Below are positions 387 through 59,500 of a stretch of 61,193 bases of DNA, piece by piece. The translations under genes were made by a program, and so were the position numbers. This stretch comes from an uncultured Verrucomicrobia subdivision 3 bacterium (lineage in GTDB: Bacteria > Verrucomicrobiota > Verrucomicrobiia > Limisphaerales > UBA8199), in the NCBI GenBank assembly GCA_903913865.1, contig CAIWMU010000171.1:1-61193 (forward strand), given 5' to 3'. The notes beneath the pieces were generated by a model, which did no database searches, was not told the origin of the DNA, and saw nothing but the letters and a program-made list of their open reading frames with translations. How positions within the stretch are numbered: the stretch's first letter is position 1; each line of letters opens with the position of its first letter.

Positions 387-2144
387 TTATTTGTGCAGCG
401 GGGTGACTTTGCCCCGGCTCAGGGGCACAGGTCCGGTCTGGTAGGCTGCAGCACTGTGGTCGGTGCCGTGGCAGGTGACAGAGCAGTAGCCCTGGCGGTT
501 GCCGGTGGAGACATATTCGAGCCGGCCATTGGCAGATTCAGCCGCGTAGTTGCGGTTGAAATTGATGAGGCTCTTGTTGTTCGCAACGCCGTGGGAGTCA
601 TGGCAGGTGGTGCAGGCAGTCTGCTTGTCCACGATGTGTTTCCGGTGGAGGGGGAAACTCTGGTCGGAGAGGATGCTGTCGCGATTGTGGCACTTGTAGC
701 AGAGGTCGTAGGAGGCGGCCGTCTCAGTGGTGAAATCGGTGGTGATGAGCTGACGCTCCAGGATGGGGGTGAATGCGGATCCATGGGGACCGTTGGGACC
801 TCCAGAACCTGTGTTCGAGCCCTGGCTGTTGTTATGGCAGGCGCTGCAATAGATAATGCTGGAGGGGGTCATCGGGGAGAGGAGACTCGGCACCGAGGGG
901 TTCTTGCCGGAGGCGATGACGGGGTGATAGGACTGGTTGGCGGGATCGAAGGCCAGCCGGGTATTCGTCTGGGGGAACTGGCGGTTCACACGGGCCTGTC
1001 CGCGGGAAACGCTGTCGGCATGGCAGCGGAAGCAAAGTTCATATTCGCGGGTGACGGTCGGAATGACTGCGCCGCTGGCGTTGACGCCCTTTACACCGGC
1101 AAGTGCGCCGGAGGCGTTGGGGGCGGTGGCCTGGGAAGGGTTGGAGGCGTGTCCGTTATGGCAGTCCGCGCACTCGACATGGCGCCGGGTGGGGTTGATG
1201 GCATCCTCCTGCGGATCATGCGCCCCGGTGTTTGCTGTGATGGGGTGGATGCTCAGCTTGTTGAATTCGGCGGCGATGTTTTTCGTGGCGACGTTCCCGG
1301 AATGGCAGGAATAGCAGTTTTGCTCCTCATCCGCGAACGTGAGAAGGCGGGGCTTGGTGCCGGCCTTGTGCGGGGAATGGCAGTTTGCGCAGGCGTTCGC
1401 AGCGACGGAGTGCTCGCGGGAGTTGGGCCAGGGGTTGATGCCGGCACCGTTCCAGGTGGCCGGGGATGTGGCATGGCTGGACTGCTGCCACTGGGTCATG
1501 TCATGACAGGTGATGCAGAGGGCGGACCCGAAATTCTCACGCACCAGGAATTTGCCAAAACGGTTGTTGTGCGGATCGTGGCAGGAGGTGCACTGGACCT
1601 TGCCCTCCCCGTCGAGCCGGACCTTGTTGACCAGGGTGGCAGGATCCCTCAACTGACCTGCCGCGATGGCGAGGGAATTGTCGTAGGTGAAGGAAACCGG
1701 ATGGTCATCGGAAAGATCCCTGCCGATGCGGCTGGGGCCGATGGGCATTCTGGTGACACCCCCCTGAAGGGTGATCGGGGTGGGCCGGTTGTCGAGCATG
1801 CCAAGAGCGACCGTGCCGTCATGACAGCTGAGGCAGAGCTTGGATGAGCCGGTGGGCTGGCCGACCGAGGCTTTCATCGTGGAGCTCTGATAGGGGGTGT
1901 AGGGAGCCGTGGACATTTTGTGGTTCCACAGCGGAGTGGCATCGGCGGCGCTATGCGGGGTGTGGCAAAAGAGGCAGATCTCGGATTCGGAGACGGCCTT
2001 GATGCTGCCCGGGCCGGAGGATGAGAGGTTGTGGGGCGAATTCAGGATGCTGTCCGCCCAGGCCGTGCCGGCGGACAAAGTGCTGGCGATCAGCAGGGGG
2101 AGGACCCCCCGGCGCAGCAGGTGGATTGAGTGGGCGGTATTCAT
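387..2144 (-). CDS. Exported 12-heme c-type cytochrome
   Basis: This 585-residue protein has a Sec signal peptide (hydrophobic core about residues 14-28, cleavage near AWA-D). It carries eleven CXXCH motifs: CLFCH, CLSCH, CTSCH, CITCH, CANCH, CYSCH, CADCH, CFRCH, CSACH, CYKCH and CTTCH. Near the C terminus it has an unusual CX3CH motif (CSVTCH), giving twelve possible hemes. The N-terminal NSPHNLS..C.FCH.PH pattern recurs in the tetraheme protein at 8162-8899, so the two are related. Its ATG overlaps the stop codon of the upstream NHL gene (ATGA), and it is the last gene of the conduit operon. Its position after a beta-barrel gene suggests a periplasmic or cell-surface partner of an outer-membrane conduit. 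That location is inference. Confidence 0.9.
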   Translation of the reverse strand: MNTAHSIHLLRRGVLPLLIASTLSAGTAWADSILNSPHNLSSSGPGSIKAVSESEICLFCHTPHSAADATPLWNHKMSTAPYTPYQSSTMKASVGQPTGSSKLCLSCHDGTVALGMLDNRPTPITLQGGVTRMPIGPSRIGRDLSDDHPVSFTYDNSLAIAAGQLRDPATLVNKVRLDGEGKVQCTSCHDPHNNRFGKFLVRENFGSALCITCHDMTQWQQSSHATSPATWNGAGINPWPNSREHSVAANACANCHSPHKAGTKPRLLTFADEEQNCYSCHSGNVATKNIAAEFNKLSIHPITANTGAHDPQEDAINPTRRHVECADCHNGHASNPSQATAPNASGALAGVKGVNASGAVIPTVTREYELCFRCHADSVSRGQARVNRQFPQTNTRLAFDPANQSYHPVIASGKNPSVPSLLSPMTPSSIIYCSACHNNSQGSNTGSGGPNGPHGSAFTPILERQLITTDFTTETAASYDLCYKCHNRDSILSDQSFPLHRKHIVDKQTACTTCHDSHGVANNKSLINFNRNYAAESANGRLEYVSTGNRQGYCSVTCHGTDHSAAAYQTGPVPLSRGKVTPLHK

Positions 2145-3208
2145 TGCGGGCCGATGTATTTAAGAACCTGTAGACGGCGGTTGTAAGAATCGGAAATGTA
2201 AATTTCGTTGGCTTTGTTGATGGCGATACCGTTTGGAAGCCAGAACTGGCCCGGGCCGGTGCCGTTCTCGCCGACGGTGAGCAGGAGTTGGCCCTGAATG
2301 TTGAAAATCTGGAGGTTGTCGAACAGCCCGTCGATCACATAGATGTGCCCCAAGCCATCCACCGCCACACCTTTGGGACGGCCGAAGTGGCCGGGGGTAT
2401 CTCCCAGGCTGCCGATCTGGGATTTGAAGGTTCCGGAAGCATCAAAGATCTGGATCCGGCCGTTCATCGAGTCCGTGACATAGACGTTGCCTGACAGGTC
2501 GGTGGCGATATGGGTCGGGAAGTTGAACTTGCCGGGTTCGGCACCACGTCCCCCGTAGGCACCCAGAAAGTTCCCGGAGAGTGAATAGGAACAGACCCTG
2601 TGCTGCTGGGAATCGACGACGAGCAACTTGTCCTTCAGGAGGGTGAGGGCGGCCGGTCGGGCGAGTTCATTTGTGATCAGAAAAAGAAGCTTTCCCTGAT
2701 CGTTCATGGCCACCACATGGCCTGCGGCGGAATCTGCCACAAAGAGGGTGGAGCCGGACTTTGCGACGGACACCGGGGAATTGAATTCCAGCTTTCCGGC
2801 CTTTTGAAAGCGGAACCACTTCTTCTGGCGGCGGTCGAGGTAGGACACGCTTTTTTCTGCAGTGTCTGTGATGCACAAATTATTGTCCTCATCACAGGCG
2901 ATGCCAAAGGGGCGGACAAGGCGTTCGTTCCCTTTGCCTGCGCCGGTGAGCCAGTTGGCCATCCTGCCCAGGGTCGAGACTTTGATACCCGCATCCGAGG
3001 GGGATGAGATGGATTGGATGAGGGCGATGCGGGCCGGGAGCGGGGGTGGCGGCCAGACGATGCCGGTGCCGGAGGCTGGATCCTTTGGTTTCGCCCCGGC
3101 GGAGGTGACCGGGAGCAGCAGGGACAGGACGAGGATCATCAATGCCGCCAGAGCCCCGGGGAAGGGGCTGGCAGGTGCATTCCCGGATGGGTGCGATCCT
3201 CGAAGCAT
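2141..3208 (-). CDS. Exported NHL-repeat beta-propeller protein
   Basis: This 355-residue protein has an N-terminal hydrophobic export segment (about residues 17-37) followed by NHL-type repeats. Examples are FPTHIATDLSGNVYVTDS, RPKGVAVDGLGHIYVIDG and LPNGIAINKANEIYISDS, consistent with a six-bladed propeller. I chose the ATG at 3208, which gives a signal sequence directly before the export segment. An upstream in-frame start would add a 54-residue stretch that overlaps the barrel gene in another frame and looks non-coding. The start lies 1 nt past the barrel gene stop, and the 3' end overlaps the 12-heme cytochrome ATG. NHL propellers are usually binding scaffolds. Here the gene sits between a barrel and a cytochrome, so a structural role in the conduit is plausible. 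It is a paralogue of 6941-8026. Confidence 0.85.
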   Translation of the reverse strand: MLRGSHPSGNAPASPFPGALAALMILVLSLLLPVTSAGAKPKDPASGTGIVWPPPPLPARIALIQSISSPSDAGIKVSTLGRMANWLTGAGKGNERLVRPFGIACDEDNNLCITDTAEKSVSYLDRRQKKWFRFQKAGKLEFNSPVSVAKSGSTLFVADSAAGHVVAMNDQGKLLFLITNELARPAALTLLKDKLLVVDSQQHRVCSYSLSGNFLGAYGGRGAEPGKFNFPTHIATDLSGNVYVTDSMNGRIQIFDASGTFKSQIGSLGDTPGHFGRPKGVAVDGLGHIYVIDGLFDNLQIFNIQGQLLLTVGENGTGPGQFWLPNGIAINKANEIYISDSYNRRLQVLKYIGPQ

Positions 3209-3209
3209 A

Positions 3210-5270
3210 CTAAAACACGCGACGCATCCGCACCAGGAACATGTGGCGTGTACGTTCCTCGTTCCGGAGGTAGAGTTCGTATTCGTAGTTGTATTCAGCC
3301 CGCAGGGTGGTGCGGCCGACCGAGTAGTCGATGCCCGGGCGAATCGTGGCGAGGGTCTGCTCCACGCCATCCCCTTCGCGCCGTGAAATACCGCCCTCGA
3401 TGTTGAACGCCATGGATGTGGTCAGGAGGTTGCGATAGCGGGTGATGAAGCTGTAGCTCTGCTCGCTGCGACCGGAATCGATGTAGCGGTTCCATGCCTC
3501 GTTGACATCGGCGGAGATGGAGCTTGTGCCGTCCAGATTGAAGGAGACACCCTGGAAGAGCCGGGTGGAGCGGTAGGTGGAGAAGGTGGAATCGTAGTAT
3601 TCCTCCTCGGCTCCAGCGCGCATCCAGCGCCAGCTGAGATCGGTGCCCACAGCGAAACTCAGGAGATCCTGAACCCGCAGTTCCTTGCTGGCGTTGTTGG
3701 CGAACAGGTTGAGGCGGCTGTAAATGCCCAAGAGATTGTTCCAGAAATCTATCCGGATGCTGACCGATTCGCTGAGGGCCTCGTAATTCCCCTCGGGAGT
3801 GGGTTCAGCCTGATAATCGGCCACAACGGAGTCGTCCATCGTGGGGACCCCGGCATTGATCTGGCGCTGGATCCGGGTGAGGGCTCCCTCGACAAACACC
3901 ATGTAATCGATCCCCCGTGTGTATTCCCGGGTGCGGGAAATGTTGTAAATGCGGAGGCTGGAGGAGCGGACGTTGGCCTGATTCAGGAAGAAGTTTCCGG
4001 GAGGGGCCCCGCCGGTTCCGGTGGTGAAGCTGTGGGGTTCGTTTTCAATGGAACTGACCCCCATTGAGTCCACGTGCTCCGCCAGCAGGCTGTTGCTGAG
4101 GCGCAGGCGGCTGATCGATGAGAGTCTTTTGGTGTAACTTTCGCCAAAGCCGGCTCCTAGACGGCGGGTGAAGCCATTGCCCCCACCATCGTGGACCTCG
4201 TTGTCCGACCCGCGCAGTAGCAGGGTGGAGGTGAGGCTGTCGTAGAGTTGGTGGCGAAGCTGGCCCTGGCCGTAGTAATTGTCGGAATTGAAGCTGGCGG
4301 TCTCGAACCGGTCGTAGTTCAGGTCGTAGAGGCTGTTCAGGTTCGGGTTATGCTCCAGGTTCAGACCGGTGCGGGCGGACGCCTCATCGCTGGGTTCGAG
4401 GTTGTTCTCGCGGTGCGTGAAATTGGCGCTGCTGATGAGCGTGTGCTGGGCGCGGGAACCGAAGGTCTCATTGTCCCCGATGGCGAACAGGTGGTCCTGT
4501 CCCTCGCCGATTCTTCCGGCATCCTCCCGGGAATACTGGTTGAAGGTGTAGTTGAGGGAACTGCCGCCCCGGGCCCGTTCATGGCGGGCTTCGGCAGCAA
4601 CGGTATCATCGTTCAGCGTTGTGATGCCGTTGAAATGGATGATGTTCGTTGAGACATTGGCGACGACATTTGTGTAGGTGTAGGCGCGCCCGTAGGCGGT
4701 CTCCTCACGGTGCGTGTAACTGGTGTTGAAAGTCCAGGGCTTGTGGGTGTAAACAGCGCGGGAGCCGTAGCGCCAGCTGTCCACGGTGAGACGACTGAAG
4801 AAGTCGTAATCGCGGAAGGAGTGGTCGTAGTCGCCAAAAATGCTGCCGTGGAGCGGTTTGCTGTCGAGGATATCCACCGTTCCACTGAAGCGGCCGAGGT
4901 ATTCGTATTGGGAATCCTTGGAGTAGGAGCCGGAACTGGCATTCTGGTGGGCCCATCCGAATGACCCCTCCGTATTAAGGTGGAACTCCACCAGATTCGG
5001 ATGGTAAACCGAGCCATCCAGAACGACACCGGTCATCGGTCCGACGAACAGGCGGTCATACCTCACGCTGGTGTCCGAATTTCGGAAGGAGGTTTCCTCA
5101 CTGCGCCCCTCGGCATAGACACCGGCGCTGACTTCAGACACGCGGATCTTGAGCCATTGGGGTTCCTGTGCGCGCGGGTCGAGGAACTGGGCGGCCGCCT
5201 GCCGCGCATGGGTGAGGGAGGTGGCGACGAGCGCCAGGGGCCAGTATCGTAAAAGAGATGGAGGCTTCAT
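3210..5270 (-). CDS. Outer-membrane beta-barrel, putative porin of a cytochrome conduit
   Basis: This 686-residue protein has a signal peptide (cleavage near AAA-Q, about residue 27). The mature part is rich in alternating polar/aromatic strands with Tyr, Arg, Ser and Asn. It ends in a terminal Phe (VRMRRVF), the usual signature of barrels inserted by the Bam machinery. No CXXCH motif is present. MtrB/PioB and the Geobacter OmbB/ExtA barrels play this role beside multiheme cytochromes, wrapping them to make an electron path across the outer membrane. I cannot assign this protein to one of those families by eye. Translational coupling supports a joint complex: its ATG overlaps the stop of the 19-heme gene upstream, and the NHL gene starts 1 nt after its stop. 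It could also be a general porin. Confidence 0.75.
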   Translation of the reverse strand: MKPPSLLRYWPLALVATSLTHARQAAAQFLDPRAQEPQWLKIRVSEVSAGVYAEGRSEETSFRNSDTSVRYDRLFVGPMTGVVLDGSVYHPNLVEFHLNTEGSFGWAHQNASSGSYSKDSQYEYLGRFSGTVDILDSKPLHGSIFGDYDHSFRDYDFFSRLTVDSWRYGSRAVYTHKPWTFNTSYTHREETAYGRAYTYTNVVANVSTNIIHFNGITTLNDDTVAAEARHERARGGSSLNYTFNQYSREDAGRIGEGQDHLFAIGDNETFGSRAQHTLISSANFTHRENNLEPSDEASARTGLNLEHNPNLNSLYDLNYDRFETASFNSDNYYGQGQLRHQLYDSLTSTLLLRGSDNEVHDGGGNGFTRRLGAGFGESYTKRLSSISRLRLSNSLLAEHVDSMGVSSIENEPHSFTTGTGGAPPGNFFLNQANVRSSSLRIYNISRTREYTRGIDYMVFVEGALTRIQRQINAGVPTMDDSVVADYQAEPTPEGNYEALSESVSIRIDFWNNLLGIYSRLNLFANNASKELRVQDLLSFAVGTDLSWRWMRAGAEEEYYDSTFSTYRSTRLFQGVSFNLDGTSSISADVNEAWNRYIDSGRSEQSYSFITRYRNLLTTSMAFNIEGGISRREGDGVEQTLATIRPGIDYSVGRTTLRAEYNYEYELYLRNEERTRHMFLVRMRRVF

Positions 5271-6919
5271 TTGGCGGGGGTGCTGGCCTGGGCTTTAAGG
5301 AAGAATTTTGCGGCCCCGAAATGCGGATCATGGCATGAGGCGCAGGCTTTATCGGAGGCGCCCGCATGACGTTTGACGGCGGCCATCTCCTTCTCCTCGT
5401 GGCACTCGAAGCAGACCTGACGGGGGTTCTTCGTCAGCAGGCTCTTTTCGGCCGAGAGATGGGGATCGTGGCAAGTGGTGCACTCGCCATTGGCGGCGGG
5501 GTCGTGCTTGAACTTTGCCTTCTCGATGGATTGGACGAGCTCCTCGTGGCAATCCGCACAGAGTTTGCCACCCGGTTTCAGGACCAGCTTCTTGATGTCC
5601 CCCTGGTGCGCGTTGTGGCAGGAGGTGCATTCGCCGTTTTCCACCGGCTGATGTTTCACCTTCGCCTTTGCAATCTTCTCCATCAGGTCCTCATGGCACT
5701 CGGCGCAGAGCTTACCATCCGGTTTTGTGAGGAGCTTCTTGGTGGCGGACTGGTGCGCGTTGTGGCAGGAGGTGCACTCACCGTTTTCGACCGGTTGATG
5801 CTTGAATTTCGCCTTGTTGAGCTTCTCCATCACATCCTCATGGCACTCGGCACAGAGTTTGCCGTCCGGCTTGGAGAGGAGTTTTTTGGTATCTGACTGG
5901 TGCGGGTTGTGGCACGAGGTGCACTCACCGTTCTCAACGGGCTGGTGCTTGAACTTACCCTTGTTGAGCTTGTCCATGACATCCTCATGGCACTCGGCAC
6001 AGAGTTTGCCATCCGGCTTGATGAGGAGTTTCTTGGTATCCGACTGGTGGGGATTATGGCAGGAGGTGCACTCGCCGTTCTCAACGGGCTGGTGCTTGAA
6101 CTTCGCCTTGGCCAGTTTCTGGCCGATGTCTTCATGGCATTCCGCGCAGAGCTTGCCGTCCGGCTTTGCCAGGAGTTTTGCGTTGGCTGAATGGTGCGGG
6201 TTGTGGCAGGAGGTGCACTCACCGTTTTCGACCGGCTGATGCTTGATCTTTGCAGCCTTGAGCTTTTCCGAGGCCTCCTTGTGGCAGTTCAGGCAGAGTG
6301 AACCCTGCTCCTTCACGAGCAGGCCCTTGAATGCCGAGGCATGGGGTTGATGGCAGGTTAGGCATTGGCCCTCCACGACCGGCTTGTGTTTGGATTTCGA
6401 GGCGTCCGGGATCGGGTCGTGGCAATCGGCACAGAGGGTGGCACCGGGCTTGAGCAGGAGCTTCGGCAGCCCGCCGCCGTGCGGATTATGGCAGGAGGAG
6501 CATTCGCCACCATCGACGGGCTGATGCTTCACCTTTTTCTTGTCGAGGAAATCATCATGGCAACCAAAGCAAACCTGCTTTTGGCTGCCCTTCATTTTGA
6601 CAGAGAACCGTGATTCGTGGCACTCCTTGCACTGCTTCTCCTCGAACGGGGGATGAGGATAGAACTTCACCGGTGCAAATGCCGGCTGGTTCGTTAAAGT
6701 TTTGACGAGTACGAGCGGTTTTCCGTTTTCATCGACCGGCCGTGCCGGTTGATTGGTGGCCCCGGGGGAGGGTACACCATCGAAGAAAAAGCTGAGGAGC
6801 TTGTAATGCTTCTCGCTCGCACAACCCGCCCAGAGGCCGATCCCGGCCAGGAGCGCCAGTGCGGGCCTCCAGGCCTTGCGCAGGCGGATTGCGGGGGTGG
6901 ATGAGGTGGTTGGTTTCAA
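5267..6919 (-). CDS. 19-heme lipoprotein built from tandem two-heme modules
   Basis: This 550-residue protein has an N-terminal hydrophobic segment ending in LWAGC, a plausible but non-canonical lipobox (Trp at -3). I count nineteen CXXCH motifs. From about residue 130 they are arranged in tandem modules of 49 residues, each with two hemes. The module pattern is KHQPVENGECTSCHNPH, then LLxKPDGKLCAECHED. The KH of each module may supply distal axial ligands. The motifs match the doubled-CXXCH family. The regular array suggests an elongated heme wire anchored by lipid in a membrane. It follows the NHL lipoprotein gene by 21 nt and overlaps the barrel gene ATG. A role as the periplasm-spanning or conduit cytochrome is inferred from context. 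Confidence 0.9.
   Translation of the reverse strand: MKPTTSSTPAIRLRKAWRPALALLAGIGLWAGCASEKHYKLLSFFFDGVPSPGATNQPARPVDENGKPLVLVKTLTNQPAFAPVKFYPHPPFEEKQCKECHESRFSVKMKGSQKQVCFGCHDDFLDKKKVKHQPVDGGECSSCHNPHGGGLPKLLLKPGATLCADCHDPIPDASKSKHKPVVEGQCLTCHQPHASAFKGLLVKEQGSLCLNCHKEASEKLKAAKIKHQPVENGECTSCHNPHHSANAKLLAKPDGKLCAECHEDIGQKLAKAKFKHQPVENGECTSCHNPHQSDTKKLLIKPDGKLCAECHEDVMDKLNKGKFKHQPVENGECTSCHNPHQSDTKKLLSKPDGKLCAECHEDVMEKLNKAKFKHQPVENGECTSCHNAHQSATKKLLTKPDGKLCAECHEDLMEKIAKAKVKHQPVENGECTSCHNAHQGDIKKLVLKPGGKLCADCHEELVQSIEKAKFKHDPAANGECTTCHDPHLSAEKSLLTKNPRQVCFECHEEKEMAAVKRHAGASDKACASCHDPHFGAAKFFLKAQASTPAK
5470..6530 (-). repeat. Tandem 147-bp coding repeats (two-heme modules)
   Basis: Within the 19-heme gene the same landmark recurs every 147 bp (near 5487, 5634, 5781, 5928, 6075, 6222 and 6369), with a slightly shorter step of 138 bp to 6507. 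The central copies are nearly identical at the DNA level, so the array probably grew by recent unequal recombination and may vary in length between strains. Confidence 0.85.
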
Positions 6920-6940
6920 GGCGAGCTTTCCAGTGTTGGG

Positions 6941-8026
6941 CTATTTCTTCTTGAGGAAGCCGTAAACGCAGATTTTTTTGCCACCCGCCTGATTCGAGAT
7001 GTAGATCAGGTGGTCAATTTTGTAGCCGGGCGCGACGAACTGCTCAAATGAGCCCATGTTCTCGCTGTCAATGGCGATCCCGGCGGGAAGATAAAGCGAG
7101 CCGGCCGTGTCCGCCTGCCCGAAGAACATCAGGAGGCGGCCTTCCGCATCGAACATTTGGGCGACCGTGGCAGCCGCATCCACGACGTAAACGATGCCTT
7201 GGGGGCTGACAGCCACGCCCTTGGGGAGGGCAAAACGGCCTGGTTCTATGCCCATTTCGCCGATGGCACGGAGATATTTTCCCTCGGCGTCGTAAACCTG
7301 AACAGCGAACCCGCCCGTGTCCGACACATACATCCGACCCTGGGCGTCCAGGGCGATATTGGTGGGGGATTTCAGCTGGGCTTTTTCATCCTTCGGATCT
7401 CCGGGCACCTGGAACAATTCGGCACGGGTTGCCTTGTTGTAAACATGAACGCAGTGGTTGCTCAAATCGGTGACGAAGATCCTGTCCTTCGAAAGGGCGA
7501 TCCCGCAAGGCTTCATGGTGCGGCCTGCCCCGATTGTGGATTTAAGGCTCCCTGCCTTGTCGTAAATAAGGACCTGGCCGCGCAGGGTGTCGGTGACGTA
7601 GCGGTTTTCGGCTTCATCCACCGCGATGTTCAGCGGGAAGTGCATGGCTTGGTTGCCGGAGGGCTTCAAAAACCGGATGGTCTTGTTCTGCAGATCCACA
7701 GTGCCCACGTTCTTGGGCTGGGTGTCACAGATGTAAATCTTCCCCTTTGAACTGGCGATGCCGTAGGGTTTCAGAATGGGCCGTTGGATGCGCTGGCCGC
7801 CAAGCACGAACTTCTTGAATTTGCTCGGCTCGCCCAATTCTGATTCGGAGGAAAAGCTGGTCAGAAACTGGATTCGTGGCTCGTCGGGAGCGGGCGGGTA
7901 AAATGTGTAATCGGCGGGGGGCGGGGTGGTTTTGCAACCGGTGAGCAGGAGCCCTGCGAGCAGCAGGGAGGCAGGCAGCAGCTTGCGGATCGCCGTTCCT
8001 ATGAAATGGTTCATCATACGTTGCAT
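6941..8026 (-). CDS. NHL-repeat beta-propeller lipoprotein
   Basis: This 361-residue protein has a canonical lipobox (LLTGC, Cys about residue 31) after a hydrophobic segment, so it should be a lipoprotein. NHL-type repeats follow, for example MKPCGIALSKDRIFVTDL, SPTNIALDAQGRMYVSDT, LPKGVAVSPQGIVYVVDA and LPAGIAIDSENMG. It starts the tight five-gene conduit cluster and lies 21 nt before the 19-heme gene. ATG codons at 8026, 8017 and 8014 are all possible starts. It is related to the NHL gene at 2141-3208, so each large cytochrome is preceded in the operon by a propeller gene. Function is not known; a docking or assembly scaffold for the cytochromes is inference. Confidence 0.85.
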   Translation of the reverse strand: MQRMMNHFIGTAIRKLLPASLLLAGLLLTGCKTTPPPADYTFYPPAPDEPRIQFLTSFSSESELGEPSKFKKFVLGGQRIQRPILKPYGIASSKGKIYICDTQPKNVGTVDLQNKTIRFLKPSGNQAMHFPLNIAVDEAENRYVTDTLRGQVLIYDKAGSLKSTIGAGRTMKPCGIALSKDRIFVTDLSNHCVHVYNKATRAELFQVPGDPKDEKAQLKSPTNIALDAQGRMYVSDTGGFAVQVYDAEGKYLRAIGEMGIEPGRFALPKGVAVSPQGIVYVVDAAATVAQMFDAEGRLLMFFGQADTAGSLYLPAGIAIDSENMGSFEQFVAPGYKIDHLIYISNQAGGKKICVYGFLKKK

Positions 8027-8161
8027 GGGCGCATCTTAGCGTGTGCGGCCGAGGCCGCCAAGAACTCTGACTGCAAACCTCAATGAAAAGCTCCCGGCGG
8101 CTGGCGGCATGGCCGGACCCGCCGCCGGGAATGGTTATATCTGTGTCAAGTCAGCAACCGC

Positions 8162-8899
8162 TTACTTGATATGGCAGGTCCGGCAGATCAAGCTGCCACG
8201 GCCGGAGGAATCCGATCCGCTGATCTTGACCATGATGCCGCTGGACGGGGCGCTGCCGACCTGCTTATGGACGTCATGGCAGGAGGTGCATTGCATCTTC
8301 TGATTGGTCAGCAGGGCTTCGCCGATGGTCTTCCCGGTCAGGGAGGAGCCGGACCAGGTCGCGGGAACCGGTGCCGCCACGCCAGGGAGGCCCGGGATCG
8401 TGTCGCCGATCTTGTATCCGGTCACGGGGGTCGGATCGTTCAACTCGCGATCCTTGTCAGCCAGAGCCTTGTCATAGACGAAGGAGATGGGATGGGTGTT
8501 GTGCAGGTCCGGTCCGATCTGGGCTTCGGGGGCGATGAATTGAGAGGTGGTGCCTGTGAGGCCGCCAATGCTCTGGTTGACCGCCACTGTGCCGTCATGG
8601 CAGCTCAAGCAGGCCATGGAGGCGCCATCCGGCTTTGATGGGATGGTGGCATCCAGCTTGGTGCTCTTGGGGGTGCCGGCGTTATACATCGTGAACGAGG
8701 CCTTTGTGGTTTCATGGGCCCAGAGGGGGATGATCTGGTCCTTGTCCGTATTGTGCGCCTGGTGACAGGGGCTGCAAACGCCCTTGCGGGTGTTCCAGGA
8801 GGCCTGCGACAGGTCGTGGGGGGAATTAATGACACCTGCCTGGGCGACCGCGGGAATCGCGGCGACCAGACCGATCAACAGGAGGTTTTGCTTCTTCAT
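8162..8899 (-). CDS. Exported tetraheme c-type cytochrome
   Basis: This 245-residue protein has a clear Sec signal (KKQNLLLIGLVAAIPAVAQA) and four CXXCH motifs: CSPCH, CLSCH, CTSCH and CRTCH (the last at the extreme C terminus). The INSPHDLS..C.PCH.AHN region resembles the start of the 12-heme protein. I chose the ATG at 8899 because it precedes the signal peptide; longer in-frame starts would add about 100 residues that overlap hemA and look non-coding. It stands between the CbcL-like gene/hemA and the conduit operon, separated from the NHL lipoprotein by 135 nt. It would suit a soluble periplasmic shuttle between the inner-membrane oxidoreductase and the conduit. This is inference. Confidence 0.9.
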   Translation of the reverse strand: MKKQNLLLIGLVAAIPAVAQAGVINSPHDLSQASWNTRKGVCSPCHQAHNTDKDQIIPLWAHETTKASFTMYNAGTPKSTKLDATIPSKPDGASMACLSCHDGTVAVNQSIGGLTGTTSQFIAPEAQIGPDLHNTHPISFVYDKALADKDRELNDPTPVTGYKIGDTIPGLPGVAAPVPATWSGSSLTGKTIGEALLTNQKMQCTSCHDVHKQVGSAPSSGIMVKISGSDSSGRGSLICRTCHIK

Positions 8900-9068: not shown

Positions 9069-10130
9069 TCATGCTGGCACACCTGCCAGAATGCAGTCGG
9101 GAGCAGATTCCCGTTTGGGGGGTGGACCTGAGAACCGCGCAAGGAGGGCGGTTGCCCGCTCGTTGATGATCTCCTGGCTGCGCACCAGTTCATGTTCACG
9201 GTTCTTCACGTTCTCCCGGACGATGTTCTCCAAATGGTCCACGTTGTAAAGATAGACATTTGGCAGTTCCTGCACATTGGTGTCAATATCCCTTGGAACG
9301 GCGATGTCGATCAGGAAAAGGGGTTGGTTGCGCCTCGCTGTCATGACCGTGGCCAACTCAGCCTTGTGCAGGATGGTCTGCGGGCTTCCGGTGGATGTGA
9401 CCACAATGTCCGCCCGGGCGACTCCCTGCAGACATTGATCGTGGGGAATGGCTTCACCCCCAAATGCGGTTGCGAGATTCACAGCCTTCTCGGGTGAACG
9501 GTTGGAAACCAGAACGGAGCGGACCCCCTTCTTGGAAAGATGCTTTACGCAGGCCTCCCCCATTTTGCCCGCGCCGATGATCATCACTGTCTTTTTGGAC
9601 AGGTCTGAATCAAAGATACGTTCCGCAAGGTCCACCGCCACACTGCCAACAGAGGTTGATCCCCGTCCAATGCCGGTCCGGGTGCGGATCTCCTTGGCCG
9701 TCTGGAGGGCTGTCTGGAAAAGGCGGTTGGTGATCTTGCCGGTGAGGCCGAACTCCTGGGCGGTCTGGTAGGCCTGCTTGACCTGACCTGTGATTTCCGT
9801 CTCCCCGATCACCAGGGAATCAAGCCCGCCCGCCACCGTGAACAGGTGCTCGACGGCTGCCCGGCCATGCCTGATATAAACATATGGCCGATAGTCGAGT
9901 TCCACACTTGAGAGGGTCTCGAACAACTTCTCCAAAGGTCGGGCCACCTGACTGGCAACCCCGTAAATCTCGACCCGGTTGCAGGTTGAGACGACGACGA
10001 CCTCCTGAAGATTGCCTGCCAGTTTGAGCCGACAGCCGTGGCAGCGCAGGCGTGAGGCTTGGACAGCCAGTTTCTCGCGCACTTCCACAGGCGCGGTCTT
10101 GTAACTAAGGCCAACGACGAAGAGGTTCAT
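9069..10130 (-). CDS. hemA: Glutamyl-tRNA reductase
   Basis: HemA reduces glutamyl-tRNA to glutamate-1-semialdehyde, the first committed step of haem synthesis by the C5 pathway, in the cytoplasm. The catalytic Cys50 lies in STCNRVEIYG. The NADPH-binding region has VMIIGAGKMGEACVKHL. The HGRAAVEHLFTVAGGLDSLVIGE block is typical of the family. At 353 residues it is shorter than the common form of about 415. The C-terminal dimerisation domain seems largely missing, ending shortly after the helix containing RSQEIINERATALLARF. Short versions exist in some bacteria, so truncation need not mean loss of function. Its place among multiheme cytochrome genes fits a high haem demand. Confidence 0.93.
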   Translation of the reverse strand: MNLFVVGLSYKTAPVEVREKLAVQASRLRCHGCRLKLAGNLQEVVVVSTCNRVEIYGVASQVARPLEKLFETLSSVELDYRPYVYIRHGRAAVEHLFTVAGGLDSLVIGETEITGQVKQAYQTAQEFGLTGKITNRLFQTALQTAKEIRTRTGIGRGSTSVGSVAVDLAERIFDSDLSKKTVMIIGAGKMGEACVKHLSKKGVRSVLVSNRSPEKAVNLATAFGGEAIPHDQCLQGVARADIVVTSTGSPQTILHKAELATVMTARRNQPLFLIDIAVPRDIDTNVQELPNVYLYNVDHLENIVRENVKNREHELVRSQEIINERATALLARFSGPPPKRESAPDCILAGVPA

Positions 10131-10415: not shown

Positions 10416-12173
10416 TCAGCCTTTTTTGTCCGTTGCAGCGGGTGGCGCTGTCGGTTTTGCCGGGTTTGGACATTCCACAGGGTCCTTTTCCAGGGGATGC
10501 TCCTCCTCCTGCCAGTGATGGGAAACCTTGCCGTTCACGCAGGCCCAGTTGATGGGGTAAATGTCCGGATCAAAGATCACATGGTAGAAATGCCAGACGA
10601 CGATGGCGAGGCAGGCCAGAATCGCCTCATAGTAATGGATCGCAGTGGCCACATCCACCGTCCACCGGGGCAGAAACCCTGTGACATCCATCTTGAACCA
10701 GATCATCAACCCGGTGAGCCCCATGATGAGCGTGCCCCAGACCACGGCCCAGTATTCCATCTTCTCCGCGTAGCCGAAGCGGCCGATCTGCGCTTTCTTC
10801 TCGCTCATTCCCAGGAGATAACGGCCGTTTACGAGCAGGTCTGTGGCATCCTTTTTGACCGGCCACAAATCCTTCACCAGTTTCCTGCCTTCTGGGGAGC
10901 TGATCACATAGTAGATGTGGTAGAGGCCCCCCAGAAGCATGACCACTCCCGAAATCCGGTGGCTCCAGCGGCGCAGCATCTCACTGGAGCCCATCAGGGT
11001 TGTGAGCCAGGAGTCCGGGTATTTGAGGGCGAACCCTGTGACAGCAAGGATGATGAAGCTGACCGCGAGAATCACATGCTGGAGCCGTTGCGAGAGGCTC
11101 ATGCGAACGACGTTGAAGTTCGCGGCGTTGAACCGGGCGCGGACTTTTCTAAACAGCAGCAGTCCATTATGCAGCAGCATGAATCCAATGGTTCCGAAGA
11201 TCAGGACAAGGTAGATCCTGCGCACCCACCAGTTGATGTTCCCACCCGCATCTGTTGCCGAGGCCTGGCCTCCGGCATCCACGTGGACTTTGCTGGTGAC
11301 AAAATTCTCGGAAGCGCCGGGGTGGCAGTTGCCACAGGTTTTGGCGAGATTGGAGGAATGGATTGTGGATCCCGGGTCGGTCGAGGGCAGGACCTTGTGG
11401 AACCCATGGCAACTGCCGCAGTTTGCCGCTGTTGCAGAGCCATATTGTGCGGCGAGGCCGTGATAGCTGCCAAAGAAAGTTGTCACACGATCCTTGGGCA
11501 GGTTGTAGCGGGTGTTCATCCGCTCCGAGGCGTGGCAGGTGCTGCAAACGTCGGCGGAAATCGCGAGCGGGGAACGGTTCTTGGGATCGCGGGTGTTGTG
11601 CTCGGCATGGCAATCTGTGCAGGTGGGGGCATCCTTGTGCCCGGCTTTGACTGCCTTGCCGTGAATGCTCTGGCCAACGTCCTCGGCAGCCTTCTCATGG
11701 CAACGTCCGCAGGTTTGGGCAATGCGTGAGAAATTCAGGGGGGAATCGGCCGAGGTCGGCGGGACGATGCCGTGGTTTCCATGGCAATCACGGCAGGCGG
11801 CCACATTCGCCTTCCCGCGACCCGCTGCCAGTCCGTGGACACTTGTGCCGTAGGCTAGGGATTGCCGCTGGTGGCACTGCCCGCAATCGACAGCCTTGGC
11901 GGCTACGGCGTTGTCCGGGTGGTCGGAGGTGAGGTCCGAGTGACAGCTGGCGCAACTGTTTGTCTTGTGGGTGCTTCCTTTCAGCCGGGCTGCATCCACA
12001 TACAGGGAGATGGATCCTCCTGAAGCGTTCGTTTTGGAAAGTTCCTTGTCTGAGTGGCAATCCAGACAAACGCTGTCCTTTATTTCGGCGGCGGCGACCC
12101 TCCCGGCGAACGTGGTGCAAAACATGGCGAGGGCTGCAGCAGCCCCTGCGAAGATCCATTTGATTCCAAACAT
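10416..12173 (-). CDS. CbcL-like nine-heme/cytochrome b quinol oxidoreductase
   Basis: This 585-residue fusion has a signal peptide, then a periplasmic domain with nine CXXCH motifs: CLDCH, CASCH, CGQCH, CRDCH, CGRCH, CTDCH, CSTCH, CGSCH and CGNCH. A membrane domain of about five helices follows, from about residue 325, with histidines placed for b-hemes (LQH, SHR, GLYHIYY, WHFYH). The architecture matches CbcL of Geobacter sulfurreducens, a nine-heme domain fused to a HydC/FdnI-type cytochrome b that passes electrons from the quinol pool to the periplasm during low-potential metal respiration. I use the ATG at 12173 just before the signal peptide. The longer in-frame start would overlap hisB on the other strand. 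It is the probable inner-membrane entry point for the conduit genes downstream. Confidence 0.88.
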   Translation of the reverse strand: MFGIKWIFAGAAAALAMFCTTFAGRVAAAEIKDSVCLDCHSDKELSKTNASGGSISLYVDAARLKGSTHKTNSCASCHSDLTSDHPDNAVAAKAVDCGQCHQRQSLAYGTSVHGLAAGRGKANVAACRDCHGNHGIVPPTSADSPLNFSRIAQTCGRCHEKAAEDVGQSIHGKAVKAGHKDAPTCTDCHAEHNTRDPKNRSPLAISADVCSTCHASERMNTRYNLPKDRVTTFFGSYHGLAAQYGSATAANCGSCHGFHKVLPSTDPGSTIHSSNLAKTCGNCHPGASENFVTSKVHVDAGGQASATDAGGNINWWVRRIYLVLIFGTIGFMLLHNGLLLFRKVRARFNAANFNVVRMSLSQRLQHVILAVSFIILAVTGFALKYPDSWLTTLMGSSEMLRRWSHRISGVVMLLGGLYHIYYVISSPEGRKLVKDLWPVKKDATDLLVNGRYLLGMSEKKAQIGRFGYAEKMEYWAVVWGTLIMGLTGLMIWFKMDVTGFLPRWTVDVATAIHYYEAILACLAIVVWHFYHVIFDPDIYPINWACVNGKVSHHWQEEEHPLEKDPVECPNPAKPTAPPAATDKKG

Positions 12174-12374
12174 AGCTAAACTTAGTTTGCTCGATGTTAG
12201 AATTAATTGCTCTACATGAATTGTTCTTTCTTTGGCTTTTTTTGGTTGACCATATTTTGTTATTGGGCTGACAAGGGATGGTTTGGATGTTTCCTTTGAG
12301 GGCATCCATGGGATTGGGGAAACGGGAATCGTGGTCGTTGTGTTTCGGGGGCGGGTATGTTTTACTGGGGGCAA

Positions 12375-13037
12375 ATGAAGCATCGGCGAGCGCAGATCAA
12401 ACGGGAGACGAAGGAGACGAGGATCTCATTGCGCCTGAATATTGATGGCACGGGCAAGGCGAAAGTGAAGACGGGGATTCCGTTTCTGGACCACATGCTG
12501 ACGCTGGTGGCGAAGCATGGGGTGCTGGATCTGGAGTTGAACTGTGACGGGGACGTGGAGGTGGATGGTCACCACACGGTTGAGGATTGCGGGATCGTAC
12601 TGGGGCAGGGCTTTCTAAAGGCCTTGGGGGACAAGAAAGGGATCCGTCGTTATGGGGCAGGGTTTGATCCGGCCAATCCTTTCACAGGTGAAGCCTATGT
12701 GCCTATGGATGAATGCCTTGCGCGGTGTGTGATTGATTTCAGCGGGAGGCCCTATCTGGTGTGGAGGGGGGTGGAAAACCTTTCCTACCGGATGGTCAGC
12801 CGGGCGGAACGTGCGCAGGACATGTCGAGCGCCTTCCGGTTTGGCCTGGCCCGGGAGTTTTTCCAGGGATTTGCGAACGAGGCCCGCTGCAACCTGCATT
12901 TGGAGTTGTTGTATGGGGAGGAACCGCACCATGTGGTGGAGGTCCTGTTCAAGGCATTTGCTAAGGCGACCGACAACGCCTGCCAGAGGGATCCCCGCAT
13001 TGAGGGGCAGTTGCCATCCACCAAGGGAAAACTGTGA
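12375..13037 (+). CDS. hisB: Imidazoleglycerol-phosphate dehydratase
   Basis: HisB dehydrates imidazole glycerol phosphate to imidazole acetol phosphate in histidine synthesis. Family blocks present are GIPFLDHMLTLVAKHG, DGHHTVEDCGIVLG (metal-binding histidines), FSGRPYLVWRG and EPHHVVEVLFKAFAKA. The 221-residue length fits the single-function enzyme without the phosphatase domain. I chose the ATG at 12375, preceded by GGGGGC, over the in-frame ATG at 12357. It is divergent from the CbcL-like gene. The 201-nt AT-rich gap between them must hold both promoters, but I could not pick convincing boxes. No other his gene is nearby. Confidence 0.93.
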   Translation: MKHRRAQIKRETKETRISLRLNIDGTGKAKVKTGIPFLDHMLTLVAKHGVLDLELNCDGDVEVDGHHTVEDCGIVLGQGFLKALGDKKGIRRYGAGFDPANPFTGEAYVPMDECLARCVIDFSGRPYLVWRGVENLSYRMVSRAERAQDMSSAFRFGLAREFFQGFANEARCNLHLELLYGEEPHHVVEVLFKAFAKATDNACQRDPRIEGQLPSTKGKL

Positions 13038-56132: not shown

Positions 56133-56450
56133 ATGGAATTGAAGTATGAGCACACACATGCAGGGAGACATCCCGATCGTGAGTCACCTTGCATTGAGGG
56201 TGGATTTGCCCACCCTACTGGCGCCTTTTTCCAAGTCGCCGCTTCTGCAATCCCCATGGGTGGTTCCCTGCATCAAATCCGGGTTCGGCAGCCTGGCGAT
56301 GGACCCAGATCGAACCAGCATTCCATGAGCCGCTCAACAACTCCCCTCAAGATTCAGGAGCAGGATGAACATGGAAAAAACCTCTTTGAAGCCAGGTCCG
56401 TCGCCTGTCTCGTGTACAACCCCTTTGTCCGTTCGACCCTTCGCCCATGA
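56133..56450 (+). CDS. Possible small protein of unknown function
   Basis: A 105-residue frame starts MELKYEHTHAGRHPD after a GGAG site 6 nt upstream and below a promoter candidate. It has no known domain, signal peptide or helix pattern, and overlapping frames are also open. It ends 55 nt before the adhesin ATG. Coding is uncertain. Confidence 0.2.
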   Translation: MELKYEHTHAGRHPDRESPCIEGGFAHPTGAFFQVAASAIPMGGSLHQIRVRQPGDGPRSNQHSMSRSTTPLKIQEQDEHGKNLFEARSVACLVYNPFVRSTLRP

Positions 56451-56505
56451 TCTCTCCGAAATTCTCAAGATGATAAGTCCCAAAACACATAATCAAACAC
56501 ATAGT

Positions 56506-59500
56506 ATGAACACGACCCTCCGAAACCGGATCCCGGGGTGCCTCCGCCCCTCCACCATAATCACCCTGCTGGTCCTACTGTTTGGGCTCTGCTCTGGGTT
56601 TCAAGCCAGGGCGGTTTTTAATACTTACATAGCCGTCGATAATAGGAACGGCACCGGGAACAATCAGTCTGACGGCTTCGGGTTGTTTTTTAATGCCGAT
56701 GGAACTCCTTGCAAGGAACAAACGATTCGCTTTGTAATTTATTTAGATATTGGAGGCAGTTGGCAACCTTGGACACCCCAATTGCCCCCGTATTCTATGT
56801 TTAACGATGGAGATGGAATATATTTCTCCTCAATTGGTGACCTGCTCATGCCGGCGGGGTATCTAGCCGGTGGATTTGCTGATGTGAGGCTATTGGCTTG
56901 GAAGGGGAACTCTTTCGACTACTTCAGCGCTCCTGTTACGGACAAGTTTTTGGCATGGGATGGAACAAATTACGTGGATGCGACAACTTTCTCATTCCCG
57001 AATCAGGTGGGTCTATCAGGTTTCGCCCCTCCGCTCAACGGCATGCCCGCCATGCAGTTGGGTGCCGATAAGTCGTCCACGACGACCGTCCTTGCCTCCT
57101 CCCTCAACCCCTCCACCTATGGGGCCAGCGTCACTCTGACGGCCACCCTCTCTACCAATGCTGCCACAGGGACAGTGACTTTCAAGGACGGGACCAACAC
57201 CCTTGGAACGGGATCCCTGACGAACGGGGTTGCCACTTTCACCACGAACGGGCTGGCGGTGGGATCCCACGAGCTGGCGGCCCAATACGGCGGAGACACC
57301 AGTTACGAGGGCAGCACTGGCCTCCTGTTCCAGACGGTGAATGACAAGGTGATTCCCACCGTTACAATTTGGCCCACGGCCAGCACTCTTACGAACGGCC
57401 AGACGCTGGCCAGTTCCACCCTTACCGGCGGGGCGGCAACACCGGAGGGCAGTTTCAGTTGGACCACGAACAGCATTGTGCCGGTCCTTGGCATCACCAG
57501 CCAGAGTGTCACCTTCACGCCGACCGATACGGCGACCTACGCGACGACAAACTGGACCGTGAGTGTCACGACGGTGCCGGGGACTTTGGTTTGGACCGGG
57601 GCCGGAGGCAATCGCTTGTGGAGGACCGCCGGGAACTGGGCGGGCGGGGTGGCACCCGTCGAGGGGGACAAGCTGGTGTTTCCCGCGGGCGCGAGCAACT
57701 CCACGGCGCTGAACGATTTTACAATCGGGACCCGCTTTCATTCCATCGAGATCGGTAACTTCGGCTATGCGATCTCGGGCTTTCCCATTATCCTGCAGAA
57801 TGGCATCACCGCGACCCCTCCATTTGGCAGTGCGGAAGTGCGAATGAACGTTACATTCGCCGGTGCCACCACGATCAGCACCGGGCCTGGAGCTCTGAGT
57901 CTTTCAGGGATTCTCTCCAGCACAAACAGCGTGACGAAGGCGGGCACGGGATGTTTGACACTCACTGCCGACAATGCGGCGACCTTGACGGGCGATTCCA
58001 CGATCAGTGAGGGCCAACTGGTGATCAGCCACGCCAAAGCCTTGGGCGCGGCGACGGGGACGACGACGATTGGTGCCGGTGCTCAATTGACGTTCGACTT
58101 CGGGAATGTTAACACCACTGTGGCCAGAGCTTTGATCGTTCAGGGCACAACCAATGGCACGGGTGCGATCACCATTCTTTCGGGTGTCCTGACCGTGACC
58201 CTCAGCAAGCCGGTCACTATTAACGCCAACACATGGATCTGCCCGGGGAGTGGCGCACGGACGCTCGACTTTTCGGGCCCGATCACGGATGCTGTGCCTG
58301 GTGGTGGCACCATCACCCTGCGCGGTGGCGGTCAGGTTAAATTCGGCAGCTCGAGCAATGTCCTTGGCTCAACGGCGTTTCTGGCTGTTGGAGCAGACAC
58401 GAAACTTACAGTGGAAAGTCAAGCCCAGGTCGGCGGGGCGAGCCTATTGGCGACCAATGGTGGATCCTTCACGCTCAGCGGTGGGATCACCATTACCAAC
58501 CCGGTCAGCCTCTCCGGGTATGGCGTGTCGGGCTCCGGTGCGATTCAGAGCAATGGGGGAATCAATCGCTATGCTGGCACGATCACCCTGCTGGCGGATG
58601 CGAATATCGGTGTCTGGGCCAACAGCCTCACCATCTCGAACATCGCGAATAGTGCGTACACACTCCGCAAATCAGGCTCCAGCCCGTTGATCATCACCGG
58701 CACACCAGCTTTTGCGGGTGGAATTGAAGTCTTTGGTGGAACCCTTCAGGTTGACGGGACACTTCCAGGCACGGGCACTGCTTCTGTCTCATCCGGCGCA
58801 ACGATCACTGGTGCCGGCAGCCTCGGCCGGGTTACCGTTCTCAGCGGCGGTCACTTTTCTCCCGCCAGCGGTCCAGGCACCCTTGCGGTGAGCGGATTGA
58901 TCCTGAACAGCGGAGCCCTTTTCGACCAGCAGATTAACGGCACGACCGCCGGAACTCAATACGACGTGACGCAGGTGGCCGGCAGTCCTGGCACTGCGGC
59001 ACTCGGCAACGCCACGCTGAACGTGACCCTGGGTTATACCCCTGCAGCCGGGGACACCTACACCATTGTCAGCACCACGGGTGGGGTCACCGGGACCTTC
59101 AAGGATCCGCTGGGCAACGTCCTGACAGAGGGCAGTTCCTTTTTGGTGAGCACCCAGTTATTCCGCATCAATTACACCGGCACGAACGTGACCTTGACCG
59201 CTGTTCTACCCACCACCACGGTTTTGGCGTCCGGCGTGAATCCCTCGACCTACGGCGGCAGCGTCACCTTGACATCCACAGTCTCGCCCAGCGCGGCCAC
59301 CGGCACCGTGACCTTCAAGGATGGCACCAACACCTTGGGCACCGGCATTCTCAGTGAGGGTGTGGCGATCTTCACCACGAACAGTCTGGTCGTGGGCATC
59401 CACGCCCTGACGGCAAGCTACGGTGGGGATAACGGTTACGCCGGCAGCATCAGCAGCCCGTTGACCCAGACGGTGGACAAGGCCCCCGCCACGGTTTCCT

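Follow-up and report, generated by a model that had tools for sequence, protein, structure and literature searches.

The Uet cluster (uetABCDEFGHIJ) of Tenderiales and Gallionella encodes a tetraheme cytochrome, a barrel, triheme cytochromes, a prolyl isomerase, two NHL proteins and an undecaheme cytochrome (PMC10734462, PMC12575090), the last of which, UetJ, also occurs in Leptothrix (PMC13386937). A locus of Geoalkalibacter ferrihydriticus contains an OmcE homologue, an MtoA-like cytochrome, a quinol cytochrome and two NHL proteins (PMC12016550). For freshwater Verrucomicrobia, He et al. (2017) described porin-multiheme clusters with 8-heme periplasmic cytochromes, in which NHL genes are unmentioned (PMC5615132). 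Moreover, NHL proteins occur in cytochrome clusters of D. ferrophilus (PMC9769857), and in syntrophic sulfate reducers the large cytochromes of nanowire or direct interspecies electron transfer (DIET) clusters have beta-propeller genes beside them (PMC12246660). The propeller is therefore a known companion of such cytochromes. Here, we analyzed a stretch of 61,193 nucleotides from an uncultured Verrucomicrobia subdivision 3 bacterium (assembly GCA_903913865.1, contig CAIWMU010000171.1; hereafter the window), which carries a cluster of two NHL propellers, two multiheme cytochromes (MHC1 and MHC2) and an outer-membrane barrel. On sequence grounds, we consider it rather probable that this cluster encodes an electron conduit across the outer membrane to which an OmcE-type cytochrome chain is attached, with the propellers as obligate docking or assembly partners.

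The cluster comprises five tightly packed minus-strand genes (387-8026), and re-reading of the open reading frames (ORFs) reproduced the strand, order and coordinates given in the first-pass annotation. In transcription order, NHL1 is followed after 21 nt by MHC1, which overlaps the barrel gene by 4 nt (ATGA); NHL2 lies 1 nt behind the barrel gene and overlaps MHC2 by 4 nt, confirming that three of the junctions overlap or nearly do so. Pfam and NCBIfam searches confirmed the NHL propellers and the multiheme cytochromes. The arrangement is not a product of chance, as translational coupling, curated-family matches and conservation of the whole unit demonstrate. The unit begins one gene earlier than annotated, with a tetraheme cytochrome 135 nt upstream of NHL1; further upstream lie hemA and then the gene of a CbcL-like quinol cytochrome.

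By description, the cluster resembles the Uet system of Candidatus Tenderia electrophaga in its barrel, its tetraheme cytochrome, its two NHL proteins (UetHI in Uet, NHL1 and NHL2 here) and its undecaheme cytochrome, since the 11 CxxCH motifs and one CxxxCH motif of MHC2 agree with UetJ (11 or 12 motifs). The tetraheme and the barrel correspond by their presence to the extracellular UetA and to UetC, their kinship being drawn from description only. Unlike in Uet, the ORFs in the first 14 kb of the window include no recognised triheme cytochrome (UetDEG) or prolyl isomerase (UetB), and a 19-heme MtrA-like cytochrome stands before the barrel; betaproteobacterial relatives (L165, L168) have trihemes alongside the barrel, NHL2 and MHC2. 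With MtrCAB, PioAB and OmaB-OmbB-OmcB, the cluster shares the coupling of a large barrel, here with MtrB as its top structural match, to a repeat cytochrome of MtrA-like type. It differs from them in that the barrel falls outside the Pfam and NCBIfam models, the outer cytochrome carries an OmcE domain rather than being of the MtrC/OmcA type, and NHL proteins are added. Because the Uet trihemes and isomerase are absent and MHC1 is present instead, we regard the cluster as a variant that works like the Uet and Mtr conduits and file it in neither.

Three further systems were compared by description. PCC3 of iron oxidisers likewise combines a long periplasmic cytochrome (21-27 hemes), a porin and an outer cytochrome, but no NHL pair or OmcE domain has been described for it. 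The freshwater Verrucomicrobia clusters, to which the first-pass annotation had pointed, belong to the same phylum and also have a porin adjoining multiheme cytochromes, whereas their cytochromes carry 8 hemes and NHL genes go unmentioned (PMC5615132). Unlike the window, the Geoalkalibacter ferrihydriticus locus was reported without a barrel, and its NHL proteins were suggested to bind minerals (PMC12016550).

The link to cytochrome nanowires comes from MHC2 and the tetraheme. The nearest solved relative of the tetraheme is the OmcE filament protein of Geobacter (7tfs; Table 1). The first ~220 residues of MHC2 form a complete OmcE-like unit, which aligns over the whole of the OmcE filament protein (profile E 2e-43) and also matches 9yuq (E 7e-32). 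OmcE's four CxxCH motifs and four further histidines (HDLS, CHxxH, DHP, CHxxH) are retained in this domain, giving eight heme-ligand histidine positions common to both proteins, and the ligand histidines are also seen in the tetraheme sequence. Therefore, two OmcE-like proteins, a barrel and an MtrA-like cytochrome share one cluster. Unlike OmcE itself, the OmcE unit of MHC2 is fused to a C-terminal part with eight more hemes and is encoded with a barrel, and a filament is only a candidate here. The CxxxCH motif of MHC2 (C554-SVT-CH) is conserved among homologues, so that the label of 12 hemes was fair; 11 CxxCH motifs occur in nearly all relatives. MHC2 did not match TIGR03507, the MtrC/OmcA-family outer cytochrome, in NCBIfam, its closest relative of solved structure being OmcE, and it had no match among plasmid sequences.

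MHC1 has exactly 19 CxxCH motifs, as first annotated, and starts with TTG. Its lipobox is atypical (LWAGC); that of most homologues is canonical. It matches the MtrA chain of the solved Mtr complex (PDB 6r2q_A, a chain whose molecule name in the structure file is wrong) at E 1.7e-12, and this match, together with the overlap of its gene with the barrel gene, is counted for the conduit. It also scores 225.8 bits against the DmsE family, above the curated cut-off of 192.2, although it has 19 hemes rather than the 10 of the MtrA/DmsE decahemes. Since this score rises with repeat number and 5-heme relatives score low, we left membership of the MtrA family unassigned. An N-terminal motif, FF[DTE]GVP, is found in 58 of 84 MHC1 proteins and in 2 of 2843 other ORFs.

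Heme numbers of MHC1 run from 3 through 5 (the commonest), 7, 9 and 11 up to 27. Of 75 non-redundant cases, 70 have an odd number, a consequence of growth by two-heme units of 49 residues. The window carries this unit as a tandem repeat, and a genome of the same genus (G192) has an MHC1 with 17 hemes. As MHC1 varies in length while the other parts are constant in size, the additional hemes are likely to project from one end of a fixed core that crosses the barrel, and would not be needed for crossing the membrane. Heme numbers that vary this freely would also suit a capacitor, that is, a module in the periplasm that stores electrons or balances redox state and has no role at the outer membrane, next to which the barrel would be an unrelated porin. 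Although cellular location here rests on prediction, we consider such a module very improbable: the barrel gene shares 4 nt with that of MHC1 and, in many phyla, is inherited together with the other parts, and OmcE homologues are extracellular in Geobacter.

Expansion and contraction of the 147-bp two-heme units is visible in the window (5541-6250) and at related loci (L040, L045-L049). The source genome also contains a second, paralogous cluster (G000:C161, L039 1-13483) with a tetraheme, NHL1, a barrel, MHC2 and a 13-heme cytochrome, which lacks MHC1 and NHL2; both versions are present in G192 as well.

The barrel ends in ...RVF, and its AlphaFold2 (AF2) model has a mean confidence (pLDDT) of 85.4. 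In Foldseek, MtrB (6r2q_B) ranked first (E 3.9e-9), with a low TM-score and other large barrels close behind. VIA-align gave Z 17.9 against MtrB over the longest aligned stretch (445 residues), TonB-dependent receptors scoring like MtrB over shorter stretches. The models thus support a large barrel and are compatible with an MtrB-like sheath. Membership of the MtrB/PioB sequence family, in contrast, was not borne out, as no Pfam, NCBIfam or PDB sequence match was obtained; searches of the PDB with the barrel or its profile returned no relatives, and weak matches to the capsid protein VP4 were dismissed as chance. By sequence, the barrel belongs to no known transporter family either. TonB-receptor families in particular went unmatched in Pfam and NCBIfam, and a transporter identity is therefore not favoured, though the fold is compatible with one.

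We hypothesize that electrons would flow from the quinol pool through the CbcL-like b/c cytochrome to MHC1, which, MtrA-like and lipid-anchored, would be threaded into the ~28-strand barrel, its extra two-heme repeats lengthening this segment. MHC1 would pass electrons to MHC2, acting as an adapter: its eight C-terminal hemes may contact the conduit, and the OmcE-like unit at its N-terminus may be continued by the OmcE-like tetraheme, arranged as a chain or filament that leads to the acceptor. The exported propellers would take no part in redox chemistry and act as obligate partners in docking or assembly, NHL2 serving MHC2 and NHL1 the tetraheme or barrel side.

Electron export is the likelier direction, though the path would be reversible in principle. 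Uptake from Fe(II), a cathode or a partner cell to quinone has been proposed for Uet-type clusters of Tenderiales and iron oxidisers (PMC12575090, PMC13386937), and such conduits can run both ways. For the present cluster, however, we consider it rather unlikely that uptake is the function, as the neighbouring CbcL-like quinol oxidoreductase is of a type linked in Geobacter to export at low potential (PMC12307469), and genes specific to uptake, such as cyc2, were not seen in the window.

Several results weigh against the conduit as we propose it. The likeness of the barrel to MtrB is unspecific, TonB-dependent receptors and LptD matching about as well and with low TM-scores, and the window barrel matched no Pfam or NCBIfam family, nor was any family common among its 33 homologues. 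Its repeats inflate the score of MHC1 against DmsE, 5-heme relatives reaching 40-49 bits, far below the cut-off. The AlphaFold model of MHC2 (pLDDT 45) is unusable. Finally, MHC1 is absent before the barrel in some loci, including the second cluster of the source genome.

This last point bears on a different role, in which barrel and propellers would form an assembly or export machine for OmcE-type nanowires instead of an electron conduit: the barrel would export the tetraheme and MHC2, and the propellers would fold, cap or shape the filament. A beta-propeller protein plays a part of this kind for OmcS in Geobacter (osc cluster). Tetraheme, NHL1 and barrel stay together even without MHC1, the minimal conserved set is a barrel, a propeller and an OmcE-like subunit, and other nanowire or DIET clusters likewise have beta-propeller genes next to their large cytochromes (PMC12246660). 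We nevertheless judge this role unlikely as a replacement for the conduit, because in most loci translational coupling ties an MtrA-like cytochrome to the barrel, as in mtrAB, and the window cluster has no prolyl isomerase; moreover, the two roles are not mutually exclusive.

The distribution of the cluster supports the conduit. Among 245 genomes of the order, the barrel was found in 32, MHC2 in 33, NHL1 in 30 and NHL2 in 32, essentially the same genomes (hypergeometric 2.5e-39, with relatedness ignored). As the genomes are related, the 26 carriers among 115 genera are the fairer measure. Matches sit in the cluster or on contigs consistent with breakage at contig ends (G018, G035, G099, G173). 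The single exception to co-occurrence, G110 (C39:4468-5175), has an MHC2 fragment only (residues 341-574) with no barrel or NHL match, which represents a decayed or broken cluster. Of the two findings that the first-pass annotation had set against its own reading, an unrelated transporter family for the barrel did not emerge from the sequence searches, nor did cytochromes conserved without barrel and NHL genes emerge from the 245 genomes, and its view of an outer-membrane porin-cytochrome conduit is supported.

Elsewhere in the phylum MHC2 is rare, occurring in 7 of 388 genomes if that of the window is counted, and the cluster accompanies it where loci were read. A scan of named genomes yielded more than 550 MHC2 relatives, the best 80 of which span at least 13 phylum-level groups at no less than 43% identity over nearly full length. 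Identity of the window's MHC2 is 50-63% to relatives within the order and ~43-64% to these best 80 loci from many phyla. Among the 43 of the best 80 with full flanks, the barrel is present in 41, the OmcE-like tetraheme in 40, NHL1 and NHL2 in 39 each, and at least one NHL gene in 42. In a tree of MHC2, sequences of one phylum mostly fall together, and that of the window lies within the Verrucomicrobiota clade.

The two propellers, NHL1 and NHL2, belong to separate subfamilies that are homologous to each other, and neither was found outside these clusters in the 245 genomes sampled. NHL1 is a clear lipoprotein (lipobox LLTGC, its cysteine at least 90% conserved), whereas the window's NHL2 has no lipobox; the longest NHL2 ORF reaches 3370, overlapping the barrel, and the conserved start is the ATG at 3208. 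In ~90% of cases MHC2 comes immediately after NHL2, and in no fewer than 59 of 89 NHL1 comes immediately after an OmcE-like tetraheme. Bacteroidota and Calditrichota carry the cluster as two separate modules, one with NHL2 and MHC2 and the other with tetraheme, NHL1, MHC1 and barrel in this order. The first-pass annotation had placed a propeller before each big cytochrome. That each propeller serves the big cytochrome behind it was not supported: NHL2 does lie ahead of MHC2 almost everywhere, but NHL1 usually follows the tetraheme and is retained at loci where MHC1 is missing. To judge from gene order, one propeller per OmcE-fold cytochrome fits better than one per big cytochrome. The same annotation had taken the propellers for a new element, and here it was mistaken, NHL genes being already on record (PMC10734462, PMC12016550, PMC9769857).

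A universal pairing rule between NHL proteins and OmcE folds was rejected: it holds for NHL2-MHC2 and mostly for tetraheme-NHL1, and is broken by a third NHL gene of Gammaproteobacteria. There (L113, L121, L133, L159, L161), this gene lies directly before that of a 16-24-heme cytochrome, and the pair adjoins a split b-type/c-type quinol oxidoreductase. Alignment showed H203 and H233 of NHL2 to be nearly invariant, with no counterpart among the conserved positions of NHL1; they may serve as contacts or ligands.

A standing question in the field is by what means cytochrome nanowires attach to outer-membrane conduits and are fed by them. Tentatively, and with less than even confidence, we propose that MHC2 is a socket for such wires in a system conserved in no fewer than 13 phyla, in which each propeller is dedicated to one OmcE-fold cytochrome and repeats tune the inner chain. 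The OmcE-like unit of MHC2 would end the tetraheme filament, its eight C-terminal hemes would reach MHC1 in the barrel, and the copy number of the two-heme repeat would set the length of the inner heme chain. Propeller-bearing conduits as such are already published (Uet; the Geoalkalibacter locus with OmcE and two NHL proteins). The wire-socket reading, the breadth across phyla and the length-variable heme chain appear to have no earlier description in the literature examined. One conserved cluster of an OmcE-like subunit, an OmcE-eight-heme fusion, a barrel and an MtrA-like cytochrome supplies concrete proteins for this question. The cluster spans Verrucomicrobiota, Planctomycetota, Bacteroidota, Calditrichota, Nitrospirota, proteobacteria and further groups, a breadth which suggests that in these groups more extracellular electron transfer takes place than searches with MtrB or OmcS markers would reveal, and the natural series of MHC1 from 5 to 27 hemes offers a ready-made length series for multiheme conduction.

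Table 1. Features of the cluster and its upstream neighbours (positions in the window)
Feature	Position	Strand	Basis
MHC2, secreted cytochrome, 11 CxxCH + 1 CxxxCH; UetJ-like undecaheme by heme count and neighbours	387..2144	-	
OmcE-like four-heme domain of MHC2, ~residues 30-221	1482..2057	-	Profile vs 7tfs, 9yuq
NHL2, six-bladed NHL propeller, predicted exported, directly upstream of MHC2	2141..3208	-	Pfam NHL/DUF5128
Predicted outer-membrane beta-barrel, 686 aa, ~28 long strands, C-terminal Phe	3210..5270	-	AF2, Foldseek
MHC1, 19-heme lipoprotein-like cytochrome, FFFDGVP motif, MtrA/DmsE-like diheme repeats	5267..6919	-	
Tandem array of two-heme units within MHC1, 147 bp x 4.8 copies	5541..6250	-	Tandem Repeats Finder
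NHL1, lipoprotein NHL propeller	6941..8026	-	Pfam NHL, lipobox
GC-rich intergenic hairpin in tetraheme/NHL1 gap, possible attenuator	8027..8161	-	Folding z -2.18 vs shuffles
OmcE-like tetraheme cytochrome, candidate nanowire subunit	8162..8899	-	OmcE 7tfs, E 3.8e-14
hemA, glutamyl-tRNA reductase (heme biosynthesis)	9069..10130	-	TIGR01035, 365 bits, cut-off 209.6
CbcL-like quinol oxidoreductase: 9-heme c-type + cytochrome b561-type membrane protein, start codon uncertain	10416..12383	-	Pfam PF01292, multiheme domains

The hemA and/or CbcL-like genes adjoin the cluster in many related genomes; the position of hemA is constant in many loci, and the CbcL-like gene is linked to the cluster in several. 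The gap between tetraheme and NHL1 folds better than shuffled sequences (z < -2) in 41 of 63 homologous regions, often with a T-run, which suggests attenuation, by which the wire subunit would be held at a surplus; the window's hairpin does not fit a consensus terminator. Beside NHL2 and MHC2, sensor-like and response-regulator-like genes occur in Bacteroidota, Calditrichota and Betaproteobacteria (L125, L140, L165, L168) and, from their appearance, are possible regulators of the cluster. At the far end of the window, the plus strand (56365-61191) encodes a very large adhesin-like repeat protein of at least 1609 aa, which runs off the contig end.

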